36,935 bases of DNA. Origin: Sneathiella sp. (lineage in GTDB: Bacteria > Pseudomonadota > Alphaproteobacteria > Sneathiellales > Sneathiellaceae). How positions within the stretch are numbered: position 1 is the first letter of the stretch; each line of letters opens with the position of its first letter. Shown one piece after another: positions 23,851-32,526 of this stretch. The notes beneath the pieces were generated by a model that was given only the letters and a program-made list of their open reading frames with translations, had not been told where the DNA came from and searched no databases. Where the stretch lies: contig NZ_JARGOQ010000035.1 in assembly GCF_029233945.1 (NCBI RefSeq), forward strand, positions 3,865 to 40,799, read 5' to 3'. The position numbers were made by a program, and so were the translations under genes.

Positions 23851-24720
23851 TTATTCGACCGTATAGGTAGCAGGAAAGCGAAAATCGAGGTGATCTGCCT
23901 TGATATCGGCTGGAAAGGCCACGAAAGGCATGGATATTTCCACCATCCGCAGTGCTGCCTTATCCAGCACGGCATGACCTGAGGAGTTGAGAACGCGAAG
24001 CGCCGTCACTCTTCCGTCCCGGTGAATGGTAAAGGCAAAGATAACATTGCCCTCCATTTGAAAACGTTTTGCCATCTTGGGATAGAATTTGTTTTTAAGC
24101 AGGACCTCCCGCACCTTGCCGCGATAGTTACTGGTTTCCGCATTTCCGCCCTGTGTAATCTTATTGCCGCTGCTGCCGGTGATCATGTTTTCCTGCCCCT
24201 GACTTGAGGCAACCACACCACCGCGAAGCTGGTCCAGATTGCTGACCGTGGGCGCGATTTTTTCCGCGACGACAGGTTTTTCGGGTGATTTTGCCTGGAC
24301 GACTTCTTTTCTCAAGGGTTTTGAAAGAGGTTTCTTCACTTTAACTGGCTTTGCCGGCGGTAGCGGCGTCACCTCTTTTTTCTTTAGCGGCGTCACCGGC
24401 GTCTTCTTTTTCACTTCTTTCGCGACAATAGCCTTTTTGGCGGTCACTTTCGGGGCAATTTCAGGGGGCAGGGGATCCTGCTCAACCAGTGTCGGCTTGG
24501 TCACTTTCTCCTGTTTAACCACCTCTGTTTCGATGGGCTCGATGGGAGAAACGGTCGACCGGCTGGAATGAATCAATGTCCCGATTTTCAGCGCCACACC
24601 GCCAATCGATCTCTCCATCTGGACCTCTGGTTCCTTAGGAGCCCAGATCGCTGCCAATGCCATATGAACGACAAGGGAAAGCAGGACAAAGACCCCAACC
24701 TGCGTGACGATCCTCATCAA
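23851..24720 (-). CDS. tonB: TonB energy-transducing protein
   Basis: This 289-residue protein links the ExbBD motor to the outer-membrane receptor. An N-terminal membrane anchor (about 5-26, with His at 19 in VVHMALAA, matching the conserved TonB transmembrane His) is followed by a long Lys/Pro/Glu/Val-rich linker (about 60-150). The C-terminal TonB_C domain (about 200-289) includes KNKFYPKMAKRFQMEGNVIFAFTIHRDG. It is the last gene of the ten-gene iron operon and overlaps exbD by 4 bp (ATGA). Being encoded with the receptor, it is probably dedicated to it. Confidence 0.93.
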   Translation of the reverse strand: MMRIVTQVGVFVLLSLVVHMALAAIWAPKEPEVQMERSIGGVALKIGTLIHSSRSTVSPIEPIETEVVKQEKVTKPTLVEQDPLPPEIAPKVTAKKAIVAKEVKKKTPVTPLKKKEVTPLPPAKPVKVKKPLSKPLRKEVVQAKSPEKPVVAEKIAPTVSNLDQLRGGVVASSQGQENMITGSSGNKITQGGNAETSNYRGKVREVLLKNKFYPKMAKRFQMEGNVIFAFTIHRDGRVTALRVLNSSGHAVLDKAALRMVEISMPFVAFPADIKADHLDFRFPATYTVE

Positions 24721-25115
24721 GGCGATCCCTTTACGGTAATCAGACGGATTTTCTGATGGCCGGCGGCGCGGAATTTTTCGAGAATTTCGACAAGACGAAC
24801 GGCGTTCAGGGTTTTATCGGCAATGACTTTGACTGGCTCGGACATTTCCGTTGCCGGAAACATCTCCAACACCTCATCCACGGACATCCGCTTGCCGAGA
24901 TACATGATCGCGCCGTCATTATGGATCTGCACCACATCGGTTTTCGCCGGAACAGTCGGCATTTCGCGGGTTTCTGCAGGCGTCAATTCCCGGGAGACCG
25001 GTGCTGCGATGGTACCGGCGATCAGAAAGAAGATCAGCATGAGAAACACCACGTTAATGAGCGGGATTGTATTCTCCGGATCACTGCGAAGCTTTTTGGG
25101 CGGGGTGAGTTTCAT
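24717..25115 (-). CDS. exbD: ExbD/TolR-family protein, second copy, membrane Asp replaced by Asn
   Basis: This 132-residue protein has the ExbD layout: a short cytoplasmic N-terminus, one membrane helix (about 17-37) and a periplasmic domain. The helix begins PLINVVFLMLIFF, with Asn21 (codon AAC) at the position where ExbD/TolR proteins carry the proton-carrying Asp (Asp25 in E. coli ExbD). The periplasmic part (VVQIHNDGAIMYLGKRMS and LVEILEKFRAAGHQKIRLIT) looks complete. It follows the other exbD by 3 bp. The intact helix suggests a specialised partner rather than a dead gene, probably forming mixed ExbD dimers in the ExbB pore; this is inference. Confidence 0.9.
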   Translation of the reverse strand: MKLTPPKKLRSDPENTIPLINVVFLMLIFFLIAGTIAAPVSRELTPAETREMPTVPAKTDVVQIHNDGAIMYLGKRMSVDEVLEMFPATEMSEPVKVIADKTLNAVRLVEILEKFRAAGHQKIRLITVKGSP

Positions 25116-25118
25116 GGC

Positions 25119-25505
25119 TTACCGGGCGAGGGAAACAGAGGTGAGGTTCGTGGATTGCAAGACTTCCAATGTCTCGACCAACGTCTGTACCGCCACCTCG
25201 CCGCGCGGGCGCAGGACGGCATGCTTCACGCCGCGCGACGTAAAGTCGGAGAGAGCATTATCCAGATCCTCAAGTTTGACAGGGCGACCATTCAGAGACA
25301 GCATGCCATCCGATTTCACATGCACCAGCAAAACAGATTTCGGCGAGGGCGCATCGCCACCCGCCGCTGCAACAGACAGATCAAACCCTGTGAAACGCAG
25401 GAAAGTCGATGTCAGCATGAAGAAGAGCAGCAAAAGAAAGATCACATCGATCAGCGATGTAAGGCCAATAATGGATTTCCTGCGCCGTGCGGAATGAAGT
25501 CGCAT
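25119..25505 (-). CDS. exbD: ExbD/TolR-family biopolymer transport protein, first copy
   Basis: This 128-residue ExbD keeps the essential membrane Asp as D20 in LTSLIDVIFLLLLFF. The periplasmic domain contains VLLVHVKSDGMLSLNGRPVKL and the C-terminal VQTLVETLEVLQSTNLTSVSLA. It should form the proton path of the ExbB-ExbD motor that powers TonB. The start at 25505, 7 bp after the exbB stop, gives a basic N-terminus (MRLHSARRRK) of normal length; an in-frame ATG further upstream would overlap exbB and is less likely. Confidence 0.92.
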   Translation of the reverse strand: MRLHSARRRKSIIGLTSLIDVIFLLLLFFMLTSTFLRFTGFDLSVAAAGGDAPSPKSVLLVHVKSDGMLSLNGRPVKLEDLDNALSDFTSRGVKHAVLRPRGEVAVQTLVETLEVLQSTNLTSVSLAR

Positions 25506-25512
25506 GATCCAC

Positions 25513-26199
25513 TTACCCCGCCGTTGTCGCCTTCGCATTCCAAAGCGCGGGTTTCTCCGACCCTGACGTAATTTCACCGGTCAGGACGGAGGTCACCATA
25601 TCCTCGATTGTCTGGGTTTCCCGCTCGATAAGGGAATCGAACCAGGCCGCCAGCAAAGAGGAGGGGATGGCGATTGCAAGACCCACCGCAGTCGTCAACA
25701 GCGCCACCCAGATACCACCGGCAAGAATGGACGGGTCAACCGTCGCACCGGCACTTTGCAGGGCCTGAAACGCATCGATCATCCCGAGCACTGTCCCGAA
25801 CAGACCGAGCAGTGGCGCGACCTGGCCCACTGTCTCCATAATACGGATACCGAACCGCGCACGCGCAATCTCACGGGAGGCAACCCGGTCGATATCTTCT
25901 CGTATCAGCGTGCCTTTATCCGGGTGATAAAGCATTCCCCGCATCGCATGGATAAGCGCCTGGGGAAGAGGCCCTCGCCGGTGTGACAGAATGCCGATCG
26001 GTTCCGGCCCCTGTTTGATGCGCCAGAGGGCAAGCGCCTGCCGGGCTGGCTCATGACGGCCAATACCGAGCCGGAGGAAAATCCATCCCTTGTAAAGCGC
26101 CGTTGCCAGAGAAATAACGGACAGGAAAAGCAGGATGGCGACAACCGGTCCGCCTTTTTCGAGCAGGGAAAGAATATAATCAAACATAGGATGATCCAT
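25513..26199 (-). CDS. exbB: ExbB/TolQ/MotA-family proton channel protein
   Basis: This protein of about 228 residues has the three-helix ExbB topology. The first helix is GGPVVAILLFLSVISLATALY, and the conserved cytoplasmic-to-membrane part is IRIMETVGQVAPLLGLFGTVLGMIDAFQAL. The last helix, GGIWVALLTTAVGLAIAIPSSLLAAWF, carries the family Thr residues that line the pore. Five copies are expected to surround an ExbD dimer. The start is uncertain: GTG 26208, ATG 26199 and ATG 26187 are all in frame with no strong Shine-Dalgarno sequence. It is followed directly by two exbD genes. Confidence 0.92.
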   Translation of the reverse strand: MDHPMFDYILSLLEKGGPVVAILLFLSVISLATALYKGWIFLRLGIGRHEPARQALALWRIKQGPEPIGILSHRRGPLPQALIHAMRGMLYHPDKGTLIREDIDRVASREIARARFGIRIMETVGQVAPLLGLFGTVLGMIDAFQALQSAGATVDPSILAGGIWVALLTTAVGLAIAIPSSLLAAWFDSLIERETQTIEDMVTSVLTGEITSGSEKPALWNAKATTAG

Positions 26200-26217
26200 C
26201 TGGGTCACAGGAGGTAC

Positions 26218-26655
26218 TTACAGGCCAAGTTCTATGGAAATACGGCTCGACGGACGGATCGCGTCCAAACATTGCGCCGCCGTCATGTCCGTCATCTGGC
26301 AATCCGAGACATCATTGATCAGGATTGTCCCGATATCCGAACAGGAAGTCTCCGCCAGATCATACTGCAAAATCCGGCGCTTTCCCTGGGTCAATCGCCC
26401 GGTGCTGATGAGCAGAAAATCCTTCGTCATCTGTTCCTTGTCGAGAATGGCAACTTCCATGCTGATATCCGATATTGTACCCGCGAGGGTATTGTGAAAT
26501 AGAAAGCTGACCCGGCAGGCACCTTCAACTTGCACGGCGTTGTTCAATTCCAGTGTCAGCTCTTTTTTCGACTCTTGGGCTGTTGCGCTGTGACAAACAG
26601 CAAAAAAAGCGAGGATTGGCAACATAAGTCGTAAACTGAGTTTTGGCTGTGTCAT
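26218..26655 (-). CDS. Uncharacterised exported protein of the iron-uptake operon
   Basis: I do not recognise this 145-residue protein. It begins with a clear Sec signal peptide (SLRLMLPILAFFAVCHSATAQ), so the mature part of about 120 residues should be periplasmic. The mature protein is predicted to be mostly beta, with phrases such as VSFLFHNTLAGTISDISMEVAIL and RILQYDLAETSCSDIG, and it holds four cysteines (in ACRVS, TSCSD, DCQM and QCLD) that could make two disulfides. It overlaps the ABC ATPase stop by 4 bp (ATGA) and lies 9-18 bp before exbB, so its production is tied to the uptake machinery. A role in the Ton complex or in handling the ligand is possible but only inferred. Confidence 0.82.
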   Translation of the reverse strand: MTQPKLSLRLMLPILAFFAVCHSATAQESKKELTLELNNAVQVEGACRVSFLFHNTLAGTISDISMEVAILDKEQMTKDFLLISTGRLTQGKRRILQYDLAETSCSDIGTILINDVSDCQMTDMTAAQCLDAIRPSSRISIELGL

Positions 26656-27494
26656 TGTTTCTCCATCATATTCATGTGTTCGACAACGGATTGGGAAGCG
26701 CCGGTTTCCACCGCCGTCAGCAAAACAACGGGATCCCCGTTGGAGCATAGCTCAATCCGGGCGTCCACTCCATAAACACGGCGGATAACTTCGCTGTCAA
26801 GCTCACGGCTTGCACAATCGGCGGCGATTTCACCATCGTTCAGCACAATGAGGCGATTGCATTGGCGAAGAGCGAGGTTGAGATCATGAATAGCGATCAG
26901 CGCCAGCGCATTGTGTTCCTGAAGATACCGGCGGGTGAGATTAAGTACCTCCACCTGCCAGCGCAGATCAAGCGCCGAGGTTGGCTCATCCAGCAGCAGG
27001 ACTTTCGGCTTTTTCAACAACACCATGGCGACAGCGACAAGCTGTCTCTTGCCGCCGGAAAGCTCCGATAACGGACGCATGGCATATTCGCCGAGATCCA
27101 GCTTGTTGAGAACCCCTGAGATTGTCGTCGCATCCTTTTCCGCTCCGTTCGACAGTCCCGCAATTTGAAGGCTCGCGAGCAGCAACTCATAGACGGTGAG
27201 GGAGGAGACTTGCGGTATTTGCTGCGGCAAATAGGCAATCTCACGAATACGCTGAGCCGGTGTCATGCGGGCAATATCCTGCATCTCCGCTCCCGCTCCG
27301 GCGTGCAATCGGGCAATGCCGGTATAGCGTTGCAGTCCGGCAAGGCTGCGCAGCAAGGTTGATTTCCCCGCCGCGTTGGGACCGATAACCCCGACAAGCT
27401 CTCCCGCAGCAAGAGAGGGGACGGAGATATCCTTCAGGATATGCCGCCCGGACAGATGCACATTCAGATTTTCCGTTTTCAACTGAAGAGTCAT
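26652..27494 (-). CDS. Iron-chelate ABC transporter ATP-binding protein (FecE/FhuC type)
   Basis: This 280-residue ATPase has Walker A GPNAAGKST at 38-46, the Q loop in YLPQQ at about 88-92, a signature motif LSGGKRQ at 145-151 and Walker B VLLLDEP at 165-171, followed by the D loop SALD and the H loop His in AIHD. It energises import of the ligand through the FecCD-like permease across the inner membrane. Its start overlaps the permease stop by 4 bp, and its stop overlaps the next gene, so all are translationally coupled. Siderophore, haem and B12 importers share this ATPase type; the neighbouring siderophore reductase favours ferric siderophores. Confidence 0.94.
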   Translation of the reverse strand: MTLQLKTENLNVHLSGRHILKDISVPSLAAGELVGVIGPNAAGKSTLLRSLAGLQRYTGIARLHAGAGAEMQDIARMTPAQRIREIAYLPQQIPQVSSLTVYELLLASLQIAGLSNGAEKDATTISGVLNKLDLGEYAMRPLSELSGGKRQLVAVAMVLLKKPKVLLLDEPTSALDLRWQVEVLNLTRRYLQEHNALALIAIHDLNLALRQCNRLIVLNDGEIAADCASRELDSEVIRRVYGVDARIELCSNGDPVVLLTAVETGASQSVVEHMNMMEKQ

Positions 27495-28561
27495 AGATGC
27501 GCCCTCTTTTGCGTGAGAACGAGAAGGAGGAAAATCGGCACGCCGATGAGGGAGGTCACGATCCCCACCGGGATAATTGCCCCCGGCAACAGGGATTTTG
27601 AGACAATGGAGGCGAGGGACAGTAGCAACGCCCCGGACAGGGCCGCGCCCGGAATAAGATACTTGTGATTTTCCCCGAGCAGCAGCCGAGCGATATGCGG
27701 CCCAACCAGTCCGACAAAGCTGATAGTGCCGACGAAGCAGACCGCGACTGCCGCCAGAAGGGATGTGCGTAGTATCACCTTAAGACGCAAACGCTTTACC
27801 GGCACGCCAAGGCTGCTCGCCTGCTCTTCCCCGCCTTTCAGAAGGGTAAGTTGCCACACATCGCGCAGGCAGAACGGCAGGACCAACAGAACAACCGCCG
27901 ACACAACCCCGACTTCCAGCCACCCGGCCCGCGTCAGATTGCCGATCGTCCAGAAGACAATCAATTGCGTGGCTTCCGCCGTAGCGACATACTGGATCGC
28001 CGCGGTGAGCGCCGTGGACAGGAAGACAATGGCAATCCCGAACAGGATGGCCGTGTTGATACTCCCGCCGAAAGCAGCCGTCATCAACAGAATGGCAAGG
28101 CCAGCCGACAGAGACCCTATAAAAGCGAAGAAGGGCAGGCTGATCCATTCCGCAACGCCCGGAATACTGATATCGAACACGATGGAGATGGCCGCGCCAA
28201 GAGCTGCGGAGGAGGAGAGGCCAAGCGTATAAGGGCTTGCAAGCGGGTTATTGAGGACCGTCTGCGTTTCCACACCAGCAAGGCCGAGCGCCGCCCCGAC
28301 GGCAAGCGCAATCAGGGCATCGGGCAGGCGTATCTGGTAGAGGATCACGGACTCGGCACGGCTCAGGCTGCTGCCATCGAAAATACCGGTTAGCAGATCA
28401 CCCGCTGAAAGCACGGCAGGACCAGTGACGATATCCCCAAGGAACGACAAAGAAATACTCGCCGCGATCAGGAACAGCAAAAAAGAGCGGCGCCAGTTCA
28501 GATGGCGATAGGCGCTGATATAGTCAGGCCCTGCCTTCATCGACATGTCTTCACTGCTCAT
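27491..28561 (-). CDS. FecCD-family iron-chelate ABC permease
   Basis: This 356-residue membrane protein belongs to the BtuC/FecCD/FhuB family with about ten transmembrane helices. Visible family blocks are IRLPDALIALAVGAALGLAGVETQTVLNNPLASPYTLGLSSSAALGAA near the start and GTISFVGLVGPHIARLLLGENHKYLIPGAALSGALLL near the end, the latter including the coupling helix that contacts the ATPase. The first of these matches the GxxxQ-x2-xxNPLAxP signature of the family. It should form a homodimer. It overlaps both neighbouring transporter genes by 4 bp. Confidence 0.94.
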   Translation of the reverse strand: MSSEDMSMKAGPDYISAYRHLNWRRSFLLFLIAASISLSFLGDIVTGPAVLSAGDLLTGIFDGSSLSRAESVILYQIRLPDALIALAVGAALGLAGVETQTVLNNPLASPYTLGLSSSAALGAAISIVFDISIPGVAEWISLPFFAFIGSLSAGLAILLMTAAFGGSINTAILFGIAIVFLSTALTAAIQYVATAEATQLIVFWTIGNLTRAGWLEVGVVSAVVLLVLPFCLRDVWQLTLLKGGEEQASSLGVPVKRLRLKVILRTSLLAAVAVCFVGTISFVGLVGPHIARLLLGENHKYLIPGAALSGALLLSLASIVSKSLLPGAIIPVGIVTSLIGVPIFLLLVLTQKRAHL

Positions 28562-29691
28562 TGCCCTTTCAATCCGATGCTAAAGAGACCGCCAGGCTGG
28601 AAGGGTAGGAATCTGTCCTGCATTTCCATCATAGTTTCCTGTAAATCGACATCCGAAAACAATTCCGGATGCTGCCATTTCGCGAAGGCGATAAGTGCAT
28701 ATATATTCCAGGCGGAGTTATAAAAATTGTGCCAGATTCCATAAACTTGCCCGTCCTGAACGGCGCTTAATGTATCAAAGCCCGGCCGCTCGGCAAGCGC
28801 TTTAAGGATGGCGCGCTCTTCTGCTTCATCCGCACCTATACCCAGGGACAGGGGCTTCTCCTTATCCGACTGCCCGCCGATGGAACCGCTTGCCGTCCCG
28901 ATCAGGATGTCGGGATCTTCGGTGATCAGGAATTCCAGCGTATGGCGACCGATAACGGCCGGTGTGACCTTCGCCGAGATATTGATCCCGCCTGCAAAAT
29001 CGATGAATGAACCAAGCATCCCGTTCGCCATGGAAATACAGCAATCGACCTTTCCGGCATGCACCTCGATAAAAACCGTCGGTTTTTCACTGTCCGGTAA
29101 ATTCTTGACCCGATCCGCAACCAGTGATTTCTTGCCTTCATAGAAATCAACAAACTCAGCAGCCCGCTTTTCCTGACCTATCACTTTGCCAATCAATTCA
29201 ATGCTCTTGGGTGTGTTGTTCAGAATATCGATGGAAAAATCGATAAAGATGACGGGAATACTGGCCGCCTCCAACTGCGCAATCATCTCCTTGTTCTCAA
29301 TCGTTGGTCCATGGCCGCGCAGGCCAAAAATCGCGACATCCGGATTAAGCGTAATCATTTTCTCCGCGGAGACACTATCGGCGCTGGTGTTGCCGATACG
29401 GGCGATCTCCTCGATCTTCGGAAACTGCTTTTTGAAAGCGGCATATCCGGCGGGATCGAATTTCTCGAATTCCCCCTGCATACCGACAATCATCTCATCG
29501 GGATTATCTATAAGCAGCGCGAGCGAGGTGAAAAAGCGACCTTCTCCGACAATTAGTCGCGTCGCGGGCGCGGGCAGGGTTACTTCCCGGCCAGCCAGAT
29601 CCTTCACGACAATCTCTGCGTTGGCGGCGGAAGAGCCAAATCCCGCCACCAACGCCGCCCCCATGAACACAAGGCTTAAAAACTTATGCAT
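28558..29691 (-). CDS. Periplasmic iron-chelate-binding protein (FecB/BtuF-type SBP)
   Basis: This 377-residue protein begins with a Sec signal peptide cleaved after about residue 25 (SSAANA before EIVVKDLAGREVTLP), so it is a soluble periplasmic protein, not a lipoprotein. The two-lobed class III fold is supported by VVKDLAGREVTLPAPATRLIVG, LNPDVAIFGLRG, the central SIELIGKVIGQEKRAAEFVDFYEGK helix, and the ITEDPDILIGTASG block. It should receive the ligand from the TonB-dependent receptor and deliver it to the permease. At 377 residues it is longer than the usual 300-330, mainly at the C-terminus. The start gives a standard leader. Confidence 0.93.
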   Translation of the reverse strand: MHKFLSLVFMGAALVAGFGSSAANAEIVVKDLAGREVTLPAPATRLIVGEGRFFTSLALLIDNPDEMIVGMQGEFEKFDPAGYAAFKKQFPKIEEIARIGNTSADSVSAEKMITLNPDVAIFGLRGHGPTIENKEMIAQLEAASIPVIFIDFSIDILNNTPKSIELIGKVIGQEKRAAEFVDFYEGKKSLVADRVKNLPDSEKPTVFIEVHAGKVDCCISMANGMLGSFIDFAGGINISAKVTPAVIGRHTLEFLITEDPDILIGTASGSIGGQSDKEKPLSLGIGADEAEERAILKALAERPGFDTLSAVQDGQVYGIWHNFYNSAWNIYALIAFAKWQHPELFSDVDLQETMMEMQDRFLPFQPGGLFSIGLKGQ

Positions 29692-29703: not shown

Positions 29704-31662
29704 CTAGAAAGTGACATTCACCATAAACAGGAAAGACCGTCCCGGTTCGTCCAGCGGCACGATGTTGCTCAAGCCCTGACCTGCGGTTGTTCTGTCCACA
29801 TAGGTTGCATCGAGAACATTGTTGATTTCCCCGCGCAGGCTGAGGCCCGGATAGGTCGCGGGCGACCATTCGGTAAACAGGTTGAACACGGCATATCCCG
29901 GCAGGCTCTCTGTTCCGGCGGGTGTATCGTTGTATTTCGCGGCAATCTCGGAACTGAAGCCTGTGGTGAGCCCGAGCGATTCAAAGAAATATCCGCCCGT
30001 AATATCGATGATCTGGCCTATGGGCGTACCGAGATAGAAGGCCGTCGTGCCAAGATCGGCGCCATTATAATCCACATCCGCATATATGTAGCTCGCACTT
30101 ACAAAGGCATTGTTCCAGTCCGCCCGAACGGAGGCGTCGAAACCCTTCGTCGTAAAGTCACCGCTGTTCGTCCGAAGGGCGGTATCCGGCACGATGACAT
30201 CGCGAATCTTAGTATAGAAATAATTAGCACCGAGGGTAAAAATACCGGCGTTTGCCTTGGCCCCGACGGTATAGTTGCGCGAATACATGGGGTCGATATC
30301 CGGATCATACGCGACGGCATTGCTGGTAAAGAACACTTCGTTCATGTCGATACCGCGAAAGACGTCCGATGCCCCCGCGACCAGGCTGACATTATCCGTC
30401 ACCGCATATTCAGCGGAAATATTGGGGCTGACGCCGAAATTACTAAAGTCCTGACCGTTGGCAGCCTCAAACCACTGGCCGTCCAGACGGAACCCGGTTG
30501 AAATATTGAGCGCGTCAAGTGGATTAAGGCGTGCCTGCACATATCCGCCAAGGTTCCAGACTTTTTCAGAGAATTTTCCTTGCGGAAAGGAGGCGAAGAA
30601 CCGCTCGTTCGTTCCCTTGTCATAGTAAAAATCCGAACCAACCGTGAGAGATCCCGTATCAAGCTGAAACCTGTTCTGGGCCTTGCCGCCATAGCTGTCG
30701 ATCTTGCTGTGATAGCTTGCCGGCGTGCTTCCGGGCCGGTTCAGGTCATAGTTATTGTAGTAGAACTCAACCTCCGGATCGTAAAGGTCGGTAGGGTCCG
30801 TTGTTTCATATCCAACGGTAATGGTCGTCCGGGAGAGATCATTCTGCTGCGGGGGAAGATCTGCCGCTGCGCTGGCGCCAGCGAGGCCCGCGAAATTTGT
30901 CCGATAGGGACGATCCGCGTCATCCACCGAGTAATCAATGGAAGAATAAATCCTGTGGCCACTGCTGCTTTCCGCCCCGAGCTTGAGGAGGCCGGACCAG
31001 AAGTCTTCGCTGCTTGCCAGTTGCGTATCACCGCTGCCATTCTTGTAGTCGTCACCCTTGGCGCGGGTTATCGCCCCCAAATAATCAACACCACCGGTCT
31101 TACCATATCCCGAAGTCGTCACCTTGATTGTTTTGGAATTCGTATCGTAGGACGTATTGACGAACGCCCCGAGATTTTGCCCGGGTGCCAGTAAATCACC
31201 GGCGCTTTTCGTCTTAAATCGGATGGCGCCACCCGAGGCGCCCGGACCGGAATCCGCCGCCGCGACACCGGCTTCAACCTCAACGGATTGAAGAAGCGCG
31301 GGGTCGATCAGGATGCTGCCGTTATGATGGAAGATATTATTGACCTGACGCGCGCCGTCTATCTGGACATTCAGGTTATGATCTTCAACACCGCGCACAA
31401 ATATCTTGTTTGATGCATTTGTAGTGCCGCCAACAGAAACACTGGAATCTCCCTTGAACACATCCGAAAGTGACTGCGGCTGCAAAAAGTCAAGATCCTC
31501 CGACGTTACCTTGCCCGTCACGCTGAGGTCATCGGCTGGCACCTCGGTTGAGACATTGATCGGTTGTTCAAGCGGGGCTTCCTTTTCCTGGGCATGCAGC
31601 GGGGCCACAAACAATACAGTGAAAAGGCAGGTAGTGCCGGCGAGATAAGTTCTTAAATTCAT
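29704..31662 (-). CDS. TonB-dependent outer-membrane receptor for an iron chelate
   Basis: This 652-residue protein has a signal peptide (cleaved after about 24), a plug domain (about 45-160, with IFVRGVEDHNLNVQIDGARQ, NNIFHHNGS and AGVAAADSGPGASGGAIRF) and a 22-strand barrel ending in aromatic residue F652 (FLFMVNVTF). The plug resembles the haem/haemoglobin receptor branch, but the FRAP/NPNL signature is changed to VFRG and YDPDID, so a haem substrate is doubtful. The adjacent siderophore reductase favours a siderophore. It lies 24 bp after the reductase gene and 12 bp before the binding-protein gene. Confidence 0.93.
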   Translation of the reverse strand: MNLRTYLAGTTCLFTVLFVAPLHAQEKEAPLEQPINVSTEVPADDLSVTGKVTSEDLDFLQPQSLSDVFKGDSSVSVGGTTNASNKIFVRGVEDHNLNVQIDGARQVNNIFHHNGSILIDPALLQSVEVEAGVAAADSGPGASGGAIRFKTKSAGDLLAPGQNLGAFVNTSYDTNSKTIKVTTSGYGKTGGVDYLGAITRAKGDDYKNGSGDTQLASSEDFWSGLLKLGAESSSGHRIYSSIDYSVDDADRPYRTNFAGLAGASAAADLPPQQNDLSRTTITVGYETTDPTDLYDPEVEFYYNNYDLNRPGSTPASYHSKIDSYGGKAQNRFQLDTGSLTVGSDFYYDKGTNERFFASFPQGKFSEKVWNLGGYVQARLNPLDALNISTGFRLDGQWFEAANGQDFSNFGVSPNISAEYAVTDNVSLVAGASDVFRGIDMNEVFFTSNAVAYDPDIDPMYSRNYTVGAKANAGIFTLGANYFYTKIRDVIVPDTALRTNSGDFTTKGFDASVRADWNNAFVSASYIYADVDYNGADLGTTAFYLGTPIGQIIDITGGYFFESLGLTTGFSSEIAAKYNDTPAGTESLPGYAVFNLFTEWSPATYPGLSLRGEINNVLDATYVDRTTAGQGLSNIVPLDEPGRSFLFMVNVTF

Positions 31663-31686: not shown

Positions 31687-32526
31687 TTAGTGCGTGTGGG
31701 AATGACCAGCCTTGGATGCGGAGTCATCTCCATAGTCGTTATCGGGGTAGTTTTCCGCCTGCTGTTTCCAGTAACCGCGGGTCAGCAGCCTGTCGGCCGG
31801 CACGTCAAATTCCTGTGCCAGGGAATGACGAATGCGGCGCATGATGCCGGATTCGCAGGCCACCCACCAATACGCATCAGGATATTCGCGAGCAGCACGG
31901 CGAACTTCCTCAACAAGCCGCTCACCGAATGCCTTGCCAATTCCCTCCGCGCGGTGCAGCCAGATCGGAGAGAAAGGCACATGCGGGCTAAGAGGACGTT
32001 CTTCCTCCAGGGTGTCAACTTCCAGGATCATTTCGGCAATGCGGGTTTCACCAGCCGCCTCAAGCACCATGGAGGCCGCCGGGATGGCCGTGTCATCCGC
32101 GACAATGATAAGCCTGTCAGCTGTTTCCGGCGGAACATACCCACCCCGCGGTCCAGCCAGAACGAGATGTTGCCCCGGCGTCGCCTGCCGTGCCCAACCG
32201 GAGGCAATTCCCTCTCCATGCAGCATGAAATCGATATCAATCTCTCCAATCTCGGGACGTACATTGCGCGGCGTATAGGTCCGGGAGGGAGGGAGCGGGC
32301 GAACCGGAGAATTATCCATCAATGACCAGTCAAAATCCCCAGGCACAAAAAACAGCTTTATGTGAGCGCCGGGGAGGGGAGGTTCGAAGCCGTCAAACTG
32401 ATCCGATATAAATGTCACTCGCCGCATACGCGGGCTCAAAACCGTGACTTCCTTCACCGTAATCTTGCGCGGTATCGGAAAATTCGGTTTTGACGCAGAC
32501 GCGGCTGTTGGTTCACCTGAAGTCAT
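31687..32526 (-). CDS. Siderophore-interacting FAD-binding ferric reductase
   Basis: This 279-residue protein belongs to the SIP family (ViuB/YqjH-like), cytoplasmic flavoenzymes that reduce Fe(III)-siderophores to release iron. The FAD-binding motif RTYTPRN and the pattern ASGWARQATPGQHLVLAGPRGGY, followed by an NAD(P)H-binding-like region ending YWWVACESGIMRRIRHSL, define the family, as does the RGYWKQ near the end. The C-terminal tail is His-rich (HSHTH), which may bind metal. AGGAG lies 9 nt before the ATG. It is the first gene of the operon and divergent from the AraC regulator. Confidence 0.94.
   Translation of the reverse strand: MTSGEPTAASASKPNFPIPRKITVKEVTVLSPRMRRVTFISDQFDGFEPPLPGAHIKLFFVPGDFDWSLMDNSPVRPLPPSRTYTPRNVRPEIGEIDIDFMLHGEGIASGWARQATPGQHLVLAGPRGGYVPPETADRLIIVADDTAIPAASMVLEAAGETRIAEMILEVDTLEEERPLSPHVPFSPIWLHRAEGIGKAFGERLVEEVRRAAREYPDAYWWVACESGIMRRIRHSLAQEFDVPADRLLTRGYWKQQAENYPDNDYGDDSASKAGHSHTH

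Follow-up and report, generated by a model that had tools for sequence, protein, structure and literature searches.

Tandem ExbD genes with aspartate and asparagine at the pore position in an alphaproteobacterial TonB locus, and a putative mixed axle for a Ton motor

The window analysed here, a stretch of 36,935 nucleotides from the alphaproteobacterium Sneathiella sp. (assembly GCF_029233945.1, contig NZ_JARGOQ010000035.1), carries on its minus strand an operon-like run of genes encoding a TonB-dependent receptor, a binding protein, a permease, an ATPase, a protein of 145 amino acids, ExbB, two ExbD proteins and TonB. The two adjacent exbD genes are the subject of this study, in that the first encodes an aspartate (Asp20; the D copy) and the second an asparagine (Asn21; the N copy) at the place of the pore aspartate of Escherichia coli ExbD. 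Pairs of tandem exbD genes are designated below by these residues, as D/N, D/D and so forth. The core features, numbered from the first letter of the window, are as follows.

25119..25505, minus strand: exbD, first copy (D copy), 128 amino acids; Asp20 corresponds to E. coli ExbD Asp25
25446..25448, minus strand: codon GAT for Asp20 of the D copy (SLIDVIFLL), the proton-carrying position; Asp in 161/161 distinct first copies
24717..25115, minus strand: exbD, second copy (N copy), 132 amino acids, otherwise ExbD-like; Asn21 occupies the E. coli Asp25 position
25053..25055, minus strand: codon AAC for Asn21 of the N copy (PLINVVFLM); Asn in 158/161 second copies of the clade
25513..26208, minus strand: exbB; Thr139 and Thr173 correspond to E. 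coli Thr148 and Thr181, and Trp167-Val168 stands at E. coli Ala-Glu176
23851..24717, minus strand: tonB; its ATG at 24715-24717 overlaps the stop of the N copy (mechanical TTG start at 24720)

These genes are tightly packed: the ATG of the D copy follows the exbB stop after seven bases, that of the N copy follows the D-copy stop after three, and the N copy and tonB overlap by one base (TGATG). The D copy would be longer if a mechanical GTG start at 25577 were used; the ATG at 25505 was taken. An initial annotation of this DNA had recorded D20 in the first and N21 (AAC) in the second of two adjacent ExbD genes, and the coordinates, codons and motifs are as it claimed. It had further equated both residues with Asp25 of E. 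coli ExbD, which was borne out by profile alignments to solved ExbD structures. Both proteins exceeded the cut-off of the Pfam family PF02472 (25.4 bits), the D copy with 74.4 bits and the N copy with 54.1 bits; the pore Asp typical of ExbD/TolR proteins is present in the D copy and replaced by Asn in the N copy. Monomer models gave a mean predicted local distance difference test (pLDDT) of 83 and a helix at residues 15-37 for the D copy, and for the N copy a pLDDT of 73, a low predicted template modelling score (pTM) of 0.45, a helix at residues 16-35 and a mixed alpha/beta periplasmic domain, for which all five PDB matches at E <= 0.001 were ExbD periplasmic domains. These modest models support ExbD-like folds for both copies and are silent on pairing. 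A PF02472 search of the genome (3.63 Mb in 114 contigs) retrieved four ExbD-family genes, and the two outside the window have Asp at the pore place (L001, EINVTPFVD; L003, PDLTPMLD), hence the cell also encodes ordinary Asp-type ExbD/TolR proteins.

The distribution of the pair was surveyed within the phylum of the window, on which the genome searches were centred. A scan of genome contigs was conducted with peptide seeds that lacked residue 21, and so did not in itself favour Asn; all of the best 80 of 405 relatives kept were tandem pairs with the D copy first and the N copy second. An N-type profile search, followed by reading of the loci, identified an N copy in at least 60 of 385 alphaproteobacterial genomes, spread over 28 family codes, with an imperfect pair in two of these genomes (a frameshift in G147 and a contig edge in G251). 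Among matches weaker than E 1e-19, 21 loci were read and all 31 ExbD rows carried Asp. A phylum-wide search of 398 genomes revealed four D/N genomes outside the Alphaproteobacteria (L205, L212, L213 and L217). Within the genus of the window the pair was found in at least 7 of 24 genomes, which marks it as an accessory system, and the nearest named matches of its N copy were Sneathiella metagenome assemblies, at 74% and 64% identity. The N copy also matched 36 plasmid records in tblastn searches, with roseobacter plasmids among the carriers, and the three plasmid loci that were read, from Phaeobacter (L231), Roseivivax (L232) and Tritonibacter (L233), were all D/N. A plasmid search with ExbB additionally returned a few matching records from other phyla. 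There were also instances of genomes harbouring two D/N pairs (for example G033, G166 and G352), including one with two divergently oriented pairs within approximately 6 kb (L163; G334:C34:1-11000).

Removal of identical pairs reduced 195 tandems to 172 distinct ones, of which 158 were D/N, 13 D/D and one D/S, with no N/D or N/N pair, and as resemblance to the N copy was the main route by which loci were found, the counts describe a clade rather than prevalence. Eleven of the 13 D/D pairs form a separate class with the motif TPMLD, in which both copies have Asp in 11/11 pairs. The other two (L180 and L210) and the D/S pair (L178) group with the D/N set, giving a clade of 161 pairs in which the first copy has Asp in 161/161 and the second has Asn in 158, Asp in two and Ser in one. 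The order within this clade is never flipped, the Asp copy always being first, and a single N row of 183 (duplicates included), that of L161 near a contig edge, was without an adjoining D copy. Second copies have a median identity of 31% (5th percentile 21%), and their Asn is encoded by AAC in 94 and AAT in 64 instances; such low identity and the use of both codons indicate that constraint at the protein level holds a residue that is one base change away from Asp. Just three other columns of the 113 scored in second copies match or exceed Asn in conservation, namely Leu, Ile and Phe (160, 159 and 158 of 161, respectively). The alignment with syntenic orthologues that the initial annotation had recommended found Asn conserved across many families, contradicting a one-off mutation. 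A natural fusion of the two copies was considered at L149 (2043-2924, one open frame) and rejected, as the C-terminus of the D copy continues in another frame, pointing to a one-base frameshift; at L151, L175 and L183 the long stop-to-stop frames look, by eye, like read-through of upstream out-of-frame sequence.

The two copies differ in further residues that are conserved reciprocally, and the associated ExbB is altered also. In the window these residues lie at the following positions.

25185..25187, minus strand: codon for Gln107, the signature residue of D copies, where periplasmic helix 2 begins
25074..25076, minus strand: codon for Glu14 of the N copy, the acid at -7 relative to Asn21, towards the cytoplasm
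24816..24818, minus strand: codon for N-copy Asp100, which lies in the ADK loop ahead of periplasmic helix 2 and aligns with E. coli ExbD Asp107
25705..25710, minus strand: codons for Trp167-Val168 of ExbB (canonical Ala-Glu)

An acidic residue at -8 to -6 before the pore residue was present in 145/161 N copies and 28/34 single ExbD/TolR proteins, versus 5/161 D copies, and at exactly -7 there was Asp or Glu in 138/161 N copies and 0/161 D copies. Similarly, the periplasmic Asp of the ADK loop was found in 157/161 N copies and 32/34 single proteins, versus 23/161 D copies. Conversely, a Gln where periplasmic helix 2 begins is conserved in 157/161 D copies and not in N copies; Gln107 of the window is invariant in alignment A4 and lies at the start of a helix modelled at residues 106-118. 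Position +13 is Gly in 146/161 N copies and Ser in 143/161 D copies. In the TPMLD class of D/D pairs the acid was kept in 22/22 copies, whilst the periplasmic Asp was present in 4/11 first and 10/11 second copies. These comparisons exclude the N rows of L149 and L161 and any row lying within a pair member; three of the 34 single rows (L149, L029 and L188) are likely to be D copies whose pairs were broken or truncated, and they count against the contrast. The loop that matches Asp100 of the N copy holds Asp107 and Thr109 in E. coli ExbD, in numbering taken from the alignment, and a Cys substituted for E. coli ExbD Thr109 forms crosslinks with TonB (PMC11658791). The numbering of that paper does not match directly, and the ADK loop is likely to be the Thr109 loop judging from the order of structural elements, since it follows the fourth strand in the window ExbD models.

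ExbB is encoded upstream of 157 of the 158 D/N pairs, and TonB downstream of 139 (not found in 14, with five loci too short). At the position of the canonical Ala, Trp was found in 153/153 scored D/N partners, and Glu176 was present in 35 and absent in 118 of these, as in the window, where Val168 takes its place; the motif was unscored in 4/157 D/N partners, 11/13 D/D partners and the D/S partner. The 51 other ExbB/TolQ rows that were scored comprised 14 with Ala-Glu, 11 with Ser-Lys, Ser-Gln or Ser-Glu, and 26 with Trp that include copies of D/N loci, thus the contrast between the D/N partners and other ExbB/TolQ proteins is thin. The polar Thr ring is kept, with Thr139 and Thr173 in the window and Thr in both columns in 96% of D/N ExbB partners. 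Glu176 of ExbB has been described as essential, with an unclear function, and a Sphingobium ExbB that lacks it was considered unlikely to be functional (PMC8599685). Neither the reciprocal residues nor the change in ExbB had featured in the initial annotation.

The history of the pair was inferred with a maximum-likelihood tree of 98 rows and 122 columns, from which the D/N column had been removed; it comprised 35 of 53 selected D/N pairs (one of the two L163 pairs) and all 14 other pairs, leaving out L018, L208, L144 and L011. The second copies formed one clade (support 97/94) that included those of L180, L210 and L178, and the TPMLD class formed its own clade (support 100/100). Mapping of the residue states required four changes, of which one origin of Asn with three later changes is the simplest reading, in a count that cannot tell gain from loss. 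The first copies needed two changes rather than one, hence a single clade is shown for the second copies and for the D/D class, and not for the first copies. Inner forks were weak because only 122 columns and a partial set of pairs were used, and three long branches were flagged, two of which meet. In a wider, quick tree, in which some members of the single group were almost identical to proteins of the pairs, the second copies of all 57 D/N pairs fell on one side.

Taken from the sequences, these features suggest that the two genes probably encode an obligate ExbD heterodimer, which would form the axle within one ExbB pentamer of a dedicated iron or heme Ton motor. The E. coli pore holds two ExbD helices (PMC6778125), and an axle of two such helices is likewise predicted for the D/N system, which shares with the canonical ExbB5-ExbD2-TonB motor of E. 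coli and Serratia homologues of all three proteins, encoded in one locus, and the polar Thr ring of ExbB. It differs in having two ExbD genes of which only one encodes the pore Asp, in an ExbB with Trp and usually without Glu176, and in the reciprocal periplasmic and cytoplasmic-side residues. Separately constrained features in each copy are as expected of different partners in one complex, and the most economical reading of the reciprocal features is that they would place one D and one N copy in each ring. The mixed dimer with an asymmetric proton path that was proposed in the initial annotation thereby gains indirect support, from the fixed gene order, co-inheritance, reciprocal losses and distinctive ExbB, whilst assembly of the two copies in one ring is a step that we infer.

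In such a ring the D copy alone would take up and release the proton, and the Asn of the N copy would be permanently neutral, resembling a partner locked in the ‘already protonated’ state. The N copy, which retains the periplasmic loop that leads into helix 2 and contains the TonB-crosslinking Thr109 in E. coli, may act as the coupling subunit, and TonB would meet the D/N pair in one fixed orientation; in E. coli, one D-box strand of TonB binds two ExbD protomers asymmetrically (PMC10907165). With a D and an N copy in one ring, alternation between aspartates would be impossible and one Asp would have to serve five sites in turn. In a rotary motor, that one Asp would act once at each ExbB subunit, so that a full turn would take five protons and 72-degree steps, in contrast to the ten protons and 36-degree steps of two alternating aspartates. 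That the D/N loci encode a widespread natural rotary motor of this type, with an obligate Asp:Asn axle in which one subunit carries protons and the other grips TonB, turning in 72-degree steps on five protons, is a tentative proposal to which we give slightly less than even credence.

Several observations weigh against an obligate Asp:Asn axle. E. coli ExbD(D25N) has been called inactive (PMC11658791). All 153 scored ExbB partners depart from Ala-Glu and 118 are without Glu176, so that proton handling in these rings may be different, or the rings may work poorly. The periplasmic Asp is frequently missing from D/D first copies too, thus pairs other than D/N share this loss. Second copies with Asp (L180 and L210) or Ser (L178) occur in the clade, so that Asn is no absolute requirement at the pore position, and the proportion of 158/172, coming from loci found largely through the N copy, is no measure of prevalence. 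In the wider tree, 53 first copies were together and 4/57 lay outside the main first-copy side, with the long L018 and L208 among the second copies and L017 and L019 beside the D/D class. Lastly, the reciprocal features would also fit two separate homodimers with different jobs.

This last arrangement, with a motor built on the D copy alone and an N copy that serves elsewhere as a non-conducting ExbD, for instance in docking TonB or peptidoglycan or in chaperoning assembly, is the alternative that fares best, though we consider it unlikely. A conserved signature of its own in each copy would be compatible with separate roles, and in Xanthomonas the second tandem exbD is dispensable for iron uptake (PMC3551730), in a pair that need not be of the D/N type. 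However, neither the periplasmic Asp nor the acid that precedes the helix survives in most D copies, so that a D:D homodimer would miss features present in most single ExbD/TolR proteins, and the fixed-order adjacency in 161/161 pairs also speaks against separate homodimers.

It is more doubtful still that D:D and D:N axles coexist, with the share of the N copy tuning leak or power by dominant-negative mixing. A neutral Asn could act as a brake, as the reported inactivity of ExbD(D25N) in E. coli (PMC11658791) would allow, and both copies are encoded in one tightly packed operon. Such mixing nonetheless requires no reciprocal loss of residues in the D copy; the gene ratio is 1:1, and the D-like rows without an N partner (L029 and L188) sit at contig ends. 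We regard as very improbable a relocation of proton handling to the acid at -7 of the N copy (Glu14) or to the altered ExbB ring, by which two protons per cycle would be retained. The occurrence of this acid in 138/161 N and no D copies, along with the changed ExbB motif, could be so explained, but Glu14 lies seven residues away towards the cytoplasm, 16/161 N copies have no acid at all at -8 to -6, and, as most single ExbD/TolR proteins have an acid there besides the pore Asp, it is more likely an ancestral feature. That the second copy is a decaying duplicate, deprived of its Asp by drift and due to disappear, is scarcely credible, as the two Asp variants and one Ser variant are set against conservation of Asn in 158/161 and of the periplasmic Asp in 157/161 second copies at a median identity of 31%, and against an N-copy model that matches the ExbD periplasmic fold.

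According to a structural paper of 2025 on Ton and Tol systems, all proposed rotary models alternate between two essential aspartates, with 36 degrees per proton (PMC12215075). A family whose second ExbD is almost always without this Asp constitutes a natural test of that assumption, in either direction; were the Asp:Asn axle to be confirmed, alternation between two acids would not be needed in 5:2 motors. Our results suggest that many alphaproteobacteria encode a natural half-acid iron-uptake motor, which could be used to test how such motors turn. As the two axle helices differ in sequence, a cryo-electron microscopy map might tell them apart, and L210, L180 and L178 offer natural variants for testing what Asn does. 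Ruegeria sp. TM1040, which has a related operon, is described as genetically tractable (PMC5225302).

Tandem exbD genes have been reported from other systems. In Sphingobium sp. SYK-6, Asp25 is conserved in both ExbD1 and ExbD2 (PMC8599685); this exbB-exbD-exbD tandem in a TonB locus, which we assume to belong to the TPMLD class, differs from that of the window in having Asp in both copies, where the second copy of the window has Asn21, and the two types fall in separate clades. The Myxococcus gliding motor AglR-AglQ-AglS combines a single AglR with two MotB homologues, AglQ and AglS, and whether these form a heterodimer is given as not known (PMC9389320); the system serves gliding rather than uptake and is likened here by its published description. 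In searches aimed at Asn-carrying or second ExbD proteins and at mixed dimers, no report of a D/N pair was found in the literature covered, which included few subscription journals and no supplements.

The remaining genes of the run, and the gene just upstream of it, relate the locus to iron uptake.

26218..26655, minus strand: protein of 145 amino acids with four Cys and, by eye, a signal-peptide-like start; often precedes exbB in D/N operons
26652..27494, minus strand: ATP-binding cassette (ABC) transporter ATPase; best NCBIfam model, below its cut-off, is a heme ABC transporter ATPase
27491..28561, minus strand: FecCD-family permease; profile match
28558..29691, minus strand: periplasmic binding protein (Peripla_BP_2); profile match
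29704..31662, minus strand: TonB-dependent receptor; nearest models are heme/hemoglobin receptors, below their cut-off
31687..32526, minus strand: siderophore-interacting flavin adenine dinucleotide (FAD)-binding reductase (FAD_binding_9 and SIP), just upstream of the run; profile match

The receptor and the binding protein resemble heme or siderophore families with scores below the curated cut-offs; for instance, among the ten window proteins scanned, the receptor scored 209 bits against a heme receptor model with a cut-off of 317. A role in iron uptake, as presumed in the initial annotation, appears right in kind, in that a related operon takes up heme (PMC5225302); in the window, where a siderophore-type reductase lies upstream, heme is a candidate substrate. 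That operon belongs to a ten-gene heme cluster of Ruegeria sp. TM1040, which includes exbB, exbD1, exbD1a (termed a ‘duplicate’ of exbD1), tonB and a hypothetical gene. All of its genes were approximately 41- to 201-fold upregulated under iron limitation, each divergent cluster was cotranscribed, and disruption of the receptor gene confirmed a role in heme uptake (PMC5225302). The gene content of this cluster, known from TM1040 and other roseobacters (hmuR, hyp, exbB, exbD1, exbD1a and tonB; PMC5225302) resembles that of the Phaeobacter plasmid locus L231, where four divergent ABC/heme genes are followed by receptor, hypothetical, exbB, exbD, exbD and tonB genes and the pair is D/N. The window has the same content in one cluster, namely a receptor, an ABC transporter, a small protein, exbB, two exbD genes and tonB. 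The likeness of TM1040 to these loci is one of gene content. A heme operon with two exbD genes has already been described in TM1040, and a term search of the main text of that article (PMC5225302) returned no mention of asparagine, ‘aspart’ or Asn; nor was Asn in a second copy found mentioned elsewhere in the literature searched.

The 145-amino-acid protein of the window had no match in Pfam or NCBIfam. An iterated profile recovered it in 86/119 D/N loci with sufficient room, versus 0/11 such D/D loci. It is also encoded in the Phaeobacter and Roseivivax plasmid loci (L231, 7544-7975; L232, 5541-5975), and the ‘hyp’ gene of the TM1040 cluster, a possible member of its family, was among the three most highly expressed (PMC5225302).

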